This document shows positions 20,534 through 52,617 of a stretch of 64,000 nucleotides of DNA, in pieces. The stretch comes from an uncultured Croceitalea sp. (GTDB taxonomy: Bacteria; Bacteroidota; Bacteroidia; Flavobacteriales; Flavobacteriaceae): NCBI GenBank assembly GCA_947499565.1, contig CANMOV010000001.1, forward strand, positions 1 through 64,000, given 5' to 3'. Under the pieces are notes generated by a model. It saw only the letters and a program-made list of their open reading frames with translations. It was not told the DNA's origin and ran no database searches. Made by a program: the position numbers and the translations under genes. Positions within the stretch are counted from its first letter, which is position 1. Every line of letters starts with the position of its first letter.

Positions 20534-21028
20534 TTACGGATTTAGGATGGTCCTTAGTTTGTTTTTTATACGATTCATTTTTACTCTAGCATTAACTTCG
20601 GTTATACCCAGCGTTGCTGCTATTTCAGAATAATCTTTATCTTCTAAATACAGAAATACAAGTGCCTTGTCAATATCACCTAGCTGCTTTACAGCATCAT
20701 AGATGAGTTTCAATTGCCTTTCTTCTGTATCATCATATTCGTCGGTCTTAATCTTATAAATTACACTATTAAAATCTTGAGTTTTAACCCTTCTTTTCGA
20801 TTTTCTGTATAGGGTAATAGCTGTATTTAAAGCAACACGATACATCCATGTGCTAAATTTTGCTTCTCCTCGAAATTTTGGATACGCCTTCCATAATTGA
20901 ATAGTTATCTCTTGGAACAAGTCATTGTGTGAGTCTCTATCGCTAGTATAGAGACTGCATACCTTATGAACAATATTCTGATTGCTCTCTAATTCGGTCA
21001 CAAATTTGTGTTCCAGGTCTTTATTCAC
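20534..21028 (-). CDS. ECF-type RNA polymerase sigma factor
   Basis: A 164-residue sigma factor with region 2 (DSHNDLFQEITIQLWKAYPKFRGEAKFSTWMYRVALNTAITLYRK) and region 4 (GDIDKALVFLYLEDKDYSEIAATLGITEVNARVKMNRIKNKLR). The best start is a GTG (MNKDLEHKFV). Its own promoter is not obvious. It pairs with the membrane protein downstream. Confidence 0.9.
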   Translation of the reverse strand: MNKDLEHKFVTELESNQNIVHKVCSLYTSDRDSHNDLFQEITIQLWKAYPKFRGEAKFSTWMYRVALNTAITLYRKSKRRVKTQDFNSVIYKIKTDEYDDTEERQLKLIYDAVKQLGDIDKALVFLYLEDKDYSEIAATLGITEVNARVKMNRIKNKLRTILNP

Positions 21029-21105: not shown

Positions 21106-21140
21106 TAAGCATTAAGCATTAAGCATTAAGCATTAAGCAG
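21106..21140. repeat. heptamer tandem array, unit TAAGCAT (CATTAAG phase)
   Basis: Four perfect copies of TAAGCAT are followed by one TAAGCAG. They lie in the gap between the ECF sigma gene start and the M20 peptidase stop. A second array with a different 7-bp unit follows 20 bp later. Confidence 0.95.
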
Positions 21141-21160
21141 AAAAGTTGAAAATATAATTT

Positions 21161-21202
21161 CATCTAACATCTAACATCTAACATCTAACATCTAACATCT
21201 AA
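21161..21202. repeat. heptamer tandem array, unit CATCTAA
   Basis: Six perfect copies of CATCTAA, followed by CATCG. The array ends 5 bp before the stop codon of the M20 gene, so it is in the 3' untranslated region of that mRNA. No hairpin terminator is seen there. Confidence 0.95.
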
Positions 21203-21207
21203 CATCG

Positions 21208-22635
21208 CTACTTTCTATAATCCAATGCCGGTGGCCTATCACCTAATAATGGTTTATACACAAAACCTTTGCCTCTTTTTTCTTCAAATTCAATTTTTGC
21301 TTTTTTAATAAGATCTTCATTGCTAAATAAATCAATAGCTGTAGCTGTGAGGGTTTTGGCGGCAACCATCATACCTTTAGTACCGATAGAAGTTCCTCCG
21401 GCAGCAACAGCCTGCCAACTATGCGCTGGTGTCCCCGGTACCCAGGTAGCCGTGCCAAAACCAACCGTAGGGACTACAAAACTTACGTCGCCAACATCTG
21501 TAGAACCATACGCTCTTGCAGTTTCTTTGTAGGGTTGCACATCTATGGATCGTGACTCGTTCAACTCTTTTTGTCCTAAACTCAAAGCTATTTTATTGCC
21601 AAAAGCTTTTTCTTCATCTGTATACGTAAAACCTCCAATTTTTGTTAGATTGGAATGCACTAGTTTTTGAAGTGTTAAATTTGGTAAAAGCTCATGAACA
21701 CCATTAACTATCTCATACTCCATTGTAGTTTCAGTTCCTAAGGCAGCACCTTCTCCGGCTTTTATAATACGCTCAAAAATACCACGAACAATATCTCTTC
21801 TATTATGCCGTGCATAATAATAAACTTCAGCAAAATCCGGTACTACATTTGGGGCTTTTCCACCATCGGTAATAACGTAATGAATTCTAGCTTCTTGTGG
21901 AATATGTTCTCGCATCATATTCACCATAACATTCATGGCTTCAACAGCATCTAACGAAGAACGTCCCATTTCTGGAGCACCAGCAGCATGAGCCGAAACC
22001 CCATGGAATCTAAACTTTGCTGATATGTTTGCCAACGCAGCTGCTGCACTAGCAGCATTTTGTGAACTAGGATGCCAATGGAGCGCAATATCTACATCAT
22101 CAAAAAGACCTTCTCTAGACATATAGACCTTAGCACCTCCGCCTTCTTCTGCTGGGCAACCATAAAAGCGAATTGTTCCGGATTGTTTGTTGGCTTTCAT
22201 CCAATCTTTAACCGCAATCGCTGCAGCTGAAGAAGCCGTGCCAAATAAATGATGTCCACAGGCATGACCAGCAACTTTTCCGGCTGATTTTTTCTCTGGT
22301 ACTGCTTGTTGAGATAATCCAGGCAAGGCATCAAATTCGCCTAAAATTGCAATAACCGGATATCCAGAACCATATTCTGCTGTAAAGGCTGTAGGTATTT
22401 CTGCTACTCCAGTTTTTATCTGAAAACCTTCTTCTTGCAATGTTTTTTGTAAAAGATTAGAACTCTTGGTTTCTTGATATCCCATTTCTGCATAGTTCCA
22501 TATCTCTTGTGCTATGGCTTCATATGCTTCGCTTTTAGAATCAATTGCAGCTAGCATATCTTGCTTGGATTTTTGAGCTGTAATTAAATTACAAATCAAG
22601 AAGGATGCTATTAGAAAGAATAATTTAATTTTCAT
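21208..22635 (-). CDS. secreted M20 family amidohydrolase (AbgB-like)
   Basis: A 475-residue protein with a signal peptide (cleavage near ITAQ) and an M20D amidohydrolase fold. Metal ligands are visible in HACGHHLFG and EEGGGAKVYMSREG, with later ALHWHP; the dimerization domain lies between (about 205-330). It resembles p-aminobenzoyl-glutamate hydrolase subunit B and related amidohydrolases and probably acts in the periplasm. The true substrate is unknown. Confidence 0.87.
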   Translation of the reverse strand: MKIKLFFLIASFLICNLITAQKSKQDMLAAIDSKSEAYEAIAQEIWNYAEMGYQETKSSNLLQKTLQEEGFQIKTGVAEIPTAFTAEYGSGYPVIAILGEFDALPGLSQQAVPEKKSAGKVAGHACGHHLFGTASSAAAIAVKDWMKANKQSGTIRFYGCPAEEGGGAKVYMSREGLFDDVDIALHWHPSSQNAASAAAALANISAKFRFHGVSAHAAGAPEMGRSSLDAVEAMNVMVNMMREHIPQEARIHYVITDGGKAPNVVPDFAEVYYYARHNRRDIVRGIFERIIKAGEGAALGTETTMEYEIVNGVHELLPNLTLQKLVHSNLTKIGGFTYTDEEKAFGNKIALSLGQKELNESRSIDVQPYKETARAYGSTDVGDVSFVVPTVGFGTATWVPGTPAHSWQAVAAGGTSIGTKGMMVAAKTLTATAIDLFSNEDLIKKAKIEFEEKRGKGFVYKPLLGDRPPALDYRK

Positions 22636-52572: not shown

Positions 52573-52589
52573 CTACCGAAAAAAGGTTT

Positions 52590-52617
52590 CAATTTTCAAT
52601 TTTCAACTTTCCATTTA
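52590..52617. repeat. heptamer array, units CAATTTT/CAACTTT/CCATTTA
   Basis: Four 7-mers in a row (CAATTTT, CAATTTT, CAACTTT, CCATTTA) end one base before the rnz ATG, so the array forms the ribosome-binding region of rnz. Confidence 0.7.

Follow-up and report, generated by a model that had tools for sequence, protein, structure and literature searches.

Tandem arrays built on a seven-nucleotide unit are an established bacterial kind (Mrazek 2007 as cited; MacGregor 2015, PMC4679880; Rehm 2015, PMC4692102), and the described systems include the GGGNATC-type repeats and the TAACTGA direct repeats. In the available text of the two later papers (PMC4692102 and PMC4679880), Mrazek et al. 2007 are cited for the finding that heptanucleotides are the most abundant class of long simple sequence repeats with units of 5-11 nt in most genomes, and for the proposal, a polymerase-slippage idea, that the polymerase is in contact with DNA over a length of seven. 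As far as that text goes, the bacterial favour for 7-nt tandem units has been noted since 2007, with its mechanism only conjectured. A paper on prokaryote satellites, in the part available, names heptamer-derived families as well (PMC6749651).

Two such arrays lie close together in the window (the whole stretch of 64,000 nucleotides from an uncultured Croceitalea sp. that was analysed), 3' of a peptidase gene and 5' of a sigma factor gene, both on the minus strand (Table 1). Gene calls come from a simple longest-ORF script and not from a gene finder; the Pfam domains of the two genes agree with the original prediction, which had placed the arrays between an ECF sigma gene and the end of an M20 peptidase gene. 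The adjacency of two perfect arrays also stands, with small corrections to the sizes: array 2, previously counted as six copies, is four bases longer than that, and the gap put at 20 bp is 21 bp. A single base (21207) separates the M20 stop codon from array 2, which reads TTAGATG on the gene strand.

Table 1. Features at the two-array locus (positions in the window)
Feature	Position	Strand	Description
ECF-type sigma factor gene	20534-21028	minus	Pfam Sigma70_r2 and Sigma70_r4_2; start at 21028
Promoter-like element TGTAACA-N15-CTACTAA	21055-21083	minus	upstream of the ECF sigma gene, between it and array 1
Heptamer array 1	21106-21139		unit TAAGCAT (ATGCTTA on minus), 4.9 copies, 34 bp, perfect
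Spacer between arrays 1 and 2	21140-21160		21 bp
Heptamer array 2	21161-21206	minus	CATCTAA, i.e. TTAGATG on the minus (gene-sense) strand, 6.6 copies, 46 bp, perfect
M20-family peptidase gene	21208-22635	minus	stop codon 21208-21210; Pfam M20_dimer and Peptidase_M20

Both arrays are perfect tandem 7-nt copies beyond chance length, as heptameric long simple sequence repeats are defined. A chance origin is ruled out by third-order Markov simulations, as the two period-7 runs of at least three copies observed in the window compare with a mean of 0.00 in 30 simulations, and none of the 30 simulated windows held a period-7 run of three copies. To call the two units unrelated, as had been done, is fair, though TAA and CAT occur in both, because their best match over all rotations and both strands leaves three of the seven bases different, the commonest value for random unit pairs. 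The arrays lie outside both flanking genes and outside the promoter-like element, so that neither falls in a coding frame or, probably, between promoter elements, as a repeat in a phase-variation locus does. The window also holds a third, imperfect period-7 array (TTTCAAT, 52587-52616, 4.3 copies, 86%).

How might such arrays arise? We put a probability of about 0.6 on their being products of mutational copying with a preferred step of seven, the units turning over over time. This reading is drawn from the excess of period 7 among long arrays, the clustering of unlike arrays, the absence of arrays from the M20-sigma site in congeners, the unlike heptamers found behind the zwf gene, and the strand-polar placement of arrays, each set out below. 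The process would copy the preceding stretch of about seven bases repeatedly in non-coding DNA, perhaps through slippage during replication in steps that are preferably 7 and less often 8; the core replisome would do the copying, and the gap just behind the M20 stop would be a permissive, perhaps favoured, spot for it. The period would then stay while units turn over, either through errors that are expanded again or because arrays are lost and others born anew, and arrays 1 and 2 themselves would be without function.

The original prediction had proposed a mechanism that prefers the period, to be judged by whether a repeat census shows an excess of 7-bp units. Our sample of the own genome comprised 800 kb of evenly spaced stretches plus the window, 864 kb in all (22% of the genome), and at a threshold of at least 14 matched bases (three copies at period 7, 3.3 at period 6, 2.75 at period 8) its perfect arrays of period 4-12 number three, all of period 7: the two reported ones and CAAGCAC x5.1. 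Counts for periods 7, 6 and 8 are 3, 0 and 0, or 1, 0 and 0 without the window. In 2.38 Mb of pooled stretches, 39 of the 65 arrays of period 2-12 at the same threshold have period 7, followed by 18 of period 8, four of 12, two of 6 and one each of 3 and 11, with none of period 2, 4, 5, 9 or 10; about half of this sequence comes from genomes picked for TTAGATG arrays, 38 of the 39 heptamer arrays come from genomes picked for arrays, and one genome (G300) alone supplies 23 of them. One stretch with six arrays, L289, includes a locus picked for its array and is the same place as the named locus L160. Around at least 117 TTAGATG x4 loci, the other arrays of period 3-12 comprise at least 70 of period 7, at least nine of period 8, at least one of 11 and at least two of 12.

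At 10 or more matched bases the picture in the own sample is a different one: seven arrays of period 6 (2.0 expected), seven of period 7 (1.3 expected), two of period 8, nine of period 12 (2.3 expected) and nine of period 21 (2.7 expected), so that period 7 is no more conspicuous than 6, 12 or 21. The stretches of eleven relatives (20 stretches, 400 kb) gave no period-7 array at 14 matched bases or more, and one among seven arrays of seven periods at 12 or more; octamers lead heptamers in G320 (6 vs 2), and so do hexamers in G323 (2 vs 0). The preferred period is upheld for long arrays, where period 7 leads 6 and 8 in the own sample (by three arrays, two of them the reported ones), in the pooled stretches and in the insect symbiont Portiera considered below; the lower threshold, the relatives and G320 and G323 count against it. 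Since period 7 is unremarkable at the lower threshold and the relatives' stretches are almost without heptamer arrays, the heptamer-making process is patchy, as is the census excess.

That different 7-bp units should stand side by side had also been remarked upon, and this proves to be a habit. Among 41 period-7 arrays in the stretches and the window, there are 13 neighbour pairs within 200 bp where 0.14 would be expected, and seven of the 13 join unlike units (four in L289, one in the window, one in L245 and one in L254). Such neighbours are already in print for other species, as the available text of MacGregor 2015 (PMC4679880) describes gaps of Gramella, Aequorivita and Elizabethkingia that each contain several heptamer arrays.

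The 0.35-Mb genome of Portiera is packed with repeats: of the 76 arrays of period 2-15 in 180 of its 352 kb, 64 are heptameric, with many units, the counts for periods 7, 6 and 8 at 14 or more matched bases being 64, 7 and 1, and unlike heptamer arrays often abut and share bases. Unlike heptamer arrays are chained in its gaps (L093, L358-L366), several of them with little C on one strand across hundreds of bases. A core-replication origin of the repeats is plausible because the Portiera of the whitefly Bemisia tabaci, in the available text of PMC7821994, is without dnaQ and repeat-rich, with many microsatellites. Could arrays 1 and 2 descend from a single older array that was split while its unit drifted? 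The spacer of 21 bases is 3 x 7, the units have TAA and CAT in common, and the base-sharing neighbours in Portiera would fit; against this, inspection by eye finds no clear heptamer pattern in the spacer and the two units are as distant as random pairs, and we rate such a split as very unlikely.

The place behind zwf allows period and letters to be considered separately. In the own genome, Pfam domains identify zwf (glucose-6-phosphate dehydrogenase) followed by a gene of the 6-phosphogluconolactonase family (pgl), and directly behind the zwf stop stands GTGCTTG x5. At the same stop, one congener (G002) has CAGTAAG x6, 3 bases behind; another (G004) has TTAGGAG x7, 2 bases behind; and a third (G006) has a decayed GTTGTTG-like array, judged by eye to begin 4 bases behind, whose lag-7 score was reached by none of 2000 mononucleotide shuffles. 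The gap is without an array in G007 and G001, while G003 has another upstream neighbour and G005 gave no match. Among other genera of the family, 14 of 16 loci were readable (L329-L340, L343 and L344, with L341 and L342 unreadable and the weaker matches L345-L357 outside the comparison) and none of the 14 has an array; six of these gaps exceed 45 nt, and their best lag-7 score is 13 of 28. The four zwf units are 2-5 substitutions apart in their best rotation, as are random pairs of equal composition, and in each of them G exceeds C on the gene strand. Comparison of these relatives suggests that a place and its seven-letter spacing can persist while the letters change.

At the M20-sigma site itself, the sigma orthologues of seven congeners were compared (L010-L016). 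The end of the M20 gene adjoins the sigma gene in six of them (L010-L015, judged by eye from the DNA), the seventh (L016) having a different neighbour beside the sigma gene, and no perfect array of period 4-11 with at least 12 matched bases occurs in any of the seven loci. Arrays 1 and 2 are probably recent at this site, because they are absent from the congener loci. A second CATCTAA array in the own genome (G000:C1:1244329-1244374), 46 bp and so of the same length as array 2, lies 1.22 Mb away, its first bases overlapping the TGA stop of an amidohydrolase gene. At the orthologous stop, congener G004 reads TAG and then TTAGATGTTGGATGTTAG, and five others (G001, G002, G003, G006 and G007) have TAA and no array; G005 (L312) was left out because the script chose another reading frame. 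Short GTCGAG...CGAGACC or CACACTGAGCCTGTCGAAGTG sequences, which we take to be REP-like, adjoin arrays in L005 and L318 and also occur in L320, a congener's gap that has no array.

The two units differ in how widely they occur. TAAGCAT x3 is found in the own genome alone among 395 genomes of the phylum searched (0 of 394 others), its reversed control in seven of the 395, and it is absent from all 19 array-bearing genomes, which rules it out as a widespread unit. TTAGATG arrays occur in 11 of 299 family genomes, own included, with no occurrence of the reversed control, and the record titles among the matches listed place the unit in several phyla. The claim that the mechanism prefers the period and 'not the sequence' thus survives in part, set against this recurrence of TTAGATG and its strand-specific placement. 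Array length differs between species: orthologous TTAGATG sites in two Aquimarina species measure 61 bp (Aquimarina macrocephali, L118 3952-4012) and 572 bp (Aquimarina megaterium, L191 reverse strand 2070-2641), in both cases 3-5 nt from the genes on either side. Four loci (L133, L142, L148 and L168) also share the position of a CATCTAA array of about 4-5 copies, immediately before the start of rplP (L16); they are from a Kaistella genome bin, Amniculibacterium and two unclassified Bacteroidetes bins, and the keeping of this array in four loci hints that single arrays may come under selection.

One could also read the arrays as regulatory RNA, with UUAGAUG repeats behind stops or UAACAUC before starts binding a protein and tuning transcript ends or translation. 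The rplP array would suit such a role, as would the crowding of TTAGATG-sense arrays close behind stops (at most 20 nt away in 30 of 41 cases), and a translational role has been proposed for the TAACTGA repeats in the available text of MacGregor 2015 (PMC4679880). However, arrays are absent in the six congeners with the same M20-sigma pair, and the changing unit behind zwf leaves no fixed binding sequence there. The original prediction had also supposed that the arrays affect mRNA 3' ends, for which our results give no support: no terminator-like site was found at the arrays, and their folding is like that of shuffled sequences, so that there is no sign of a terminator or structured RNA. We therefore consider regulation through RNA unlikely.

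The arrays also leave the promoter-like element upstream of the sigma gene untouched. This element is present in nine of 12 orthologous sigma loci (L009-L020, own included) if variants of its second half are allowed, these having been picked after inspecting the sequences; the CTACTAA half itself is present in six of the 12, and the exact TGTAACA-N15-CTACTAA form does not occur in the 800 kb of own-genome stretches. It may be an autoregulated ECF promoter, which it resembles.

Mutational copying leaves the placement of arrays on the two strands unexplained. For TTAGATG we began from 130 loci; 30 of them, at a contig edge or lacking a gene on one side, were set aside, and merging by flanking-gene similarity reduced the other 100 to 84 sites. 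Coding sequence lies closer to the 5' edge of the TTAGATG strand at 67 of the 84 and to the 3' edge at 17 (p 3.5e-8; medians 15 and 137 nt). When TTAGATG-like arrays were instead grouped by place and left uncollapsed, the counts came out lower (65/89; 70/95; 70/94 without the duplicate stretch). The corresponding figure for CATCTAA-sense arrays within 20 nt behind a stop is 3 of 49, against the 30 of 41 given above; before starts the sense difference is weak (16/43 vs 6/35, p 0.08). In other units, the 5' edge of the G-richer strand is nearer to coding sequence in 29 of 37 clusters, and in 19 of 21 if strongly skewed. Six of 43 clusters were excluded for want of G/C skew, as were clusters within ORFs, and the 29 of 37 divide into 22 of 26 in stretches and window and 7 of 11 in named loci. 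The first such count was 17 of 23 at a skew of at least 0.2 (p 0.035), and 29 of 37 was reached after more stretches and a slightly lower threshold. All p-values on polarity are exploratory, thresholds and added stretches having been chosen along the way. Array 2 follows the pattern, with the 5' edge of its G-richer strand 1 nt behind the M20 stop, and array 1, with equal G and C, cannot be oriented.

Background composition is rejected as the cause, since random skewed 28-mers in array-free gaps show the same placement in 659 of 1205 (55%) and 247 of 442 (56%) cases vs 67 of 84 and 29 of 37 for arrays. There is no background skew behind stops (-0.009, 0.027), and before starts there is a C excess on the sense strand (-0.153, -0.141), in the same direction as the arrays. 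The one-strand G/C bias of units is, in each of three sets, modestly above that of intergenic 7-mers (25/35 vs 0.588; 18/36 vs 0.339; 19/45 vs 0.376). Among the 30 stop-adjacent sites, stops inside the array included, the stop is TAG in 21, in register with the TAG of the unit in 15, and array ends show some preference for fixed phases, 27 of the 84 beginning at the first T.

Might G-quadruplex formation cause both the polarity and the abundance, as discussed for GGGNATC heptamers? The same polarity is reported for GGGNATC-type repeats in the available text of Rehm 2015 (PMC4692102), where quadruplexes are discussed, and units here without GG on either strand reach 11 of 15, not significant alone (p 0.12). 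However, TTAGATG is polar without two adjacent G, and other units without GGG stand at 22 of 29 (p 0.008). As TTAGATG shows the polarity without an adjacent G pair, this argues that quadruplex formation is not a necessary cause of it, and we give the quadruplex explanation hardly any credence.

Polar extension would address the placement more directly: at a break or stall close to a gene edge, the G-richer strand would gain repeats at its 3' end in a telomerase-like way, leaving the older units beside the gene. The 5' edge of the G-richer strand is indeed nearer to coding sequence whatever the direction of the gene, in convergent gene pairs alone in 14 of 15 cases, and degenerate units are more often on the gene side (26 vs 8 of the 84 sites, the rest tied). 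Against it, the reverse-transcriptase domain PF00078 (RVT_1) has no match in the own genome (G000, 97% complete), RVT_1 domains occur in three of 11 TTAGATG-bearing genomes vs eight of 19 others (including G002 and G004, which have other heptamer arrays), and Portiera, with its long gaps, has no polarity (9 of 24). Addition driven by a reverse transcriptase with this domain is rejected for want of any association, and extension from a strand end appears to us decidedly unlikely.

Mutational copying with a preferred step of seven, which we favour, must still answer for the polarity (67/84; 29/37) and for the pull of stop codons (30/41 vs 3/49), neither of which plain slippage predicts. Also counted against it are the recurrence of TTAGATG in several phyla among the matches listed, the rplP array kept in four loci, the missing polarity in Portiera and the patchiness. 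Perhaps bacterial heptamer arrays all come from a single general kind of strand-polar copying, which would fix their period (7, sometimes 8) and their direction (the G-richer strand running away from coding sequence) and leave the letters free, so that species after species would fill a given gap behind a stop with a different heptamer; we offer this tentatively and are inclined to doubt it.

What, then, does this locus add? A zwf-type site with unlike heptamers and a repeat-packed Portiera make the 7-nt question testable, since they allow the period to be told apart from the sequence, and the polarity limits the strand and the end at which growth can take place. By title or abstract, in a search that reached few subscription journals, we found no paper on TTAGATG arrays, on polarity of non-quadruplex heptamers or on unit replacement at one site. 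To the extent of the available text, the arrays resemble the TAACTGA direct repeats (MacGregor 2015, PMC4679880) as heptamers in Bacteroidota gaps with several arrays per gap, whereas neither unit here is TAACTGA, most TAACTGA repeats in Maribeggiatoa precede start codons and array 2 stands behind a stop, and no regulatory network is seen here. With the GGGNATC-type repeats of Xanthomonas and Nostoc, as the available text of Rehm et al. 2015 (PMC4692102) describes them, our arrays have in common the period of 7, the intergenic location, the 5' edge of the repeat strand near an ORF whatever its orientation, and array lengths that vary among related genomes. They differ from these in that TAAGCAT and CATCTAA are without G runs, having three or more adjacent G in a unit on neither strand, in that the unit at one site (zwf) differs between congeners, and in that arrays are few in the own-genome sample. 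Compared with Mrazek et al. 2007 (as cited), a site with unlike units in congeners and the polarity of units without G runs both go beyond what was described.
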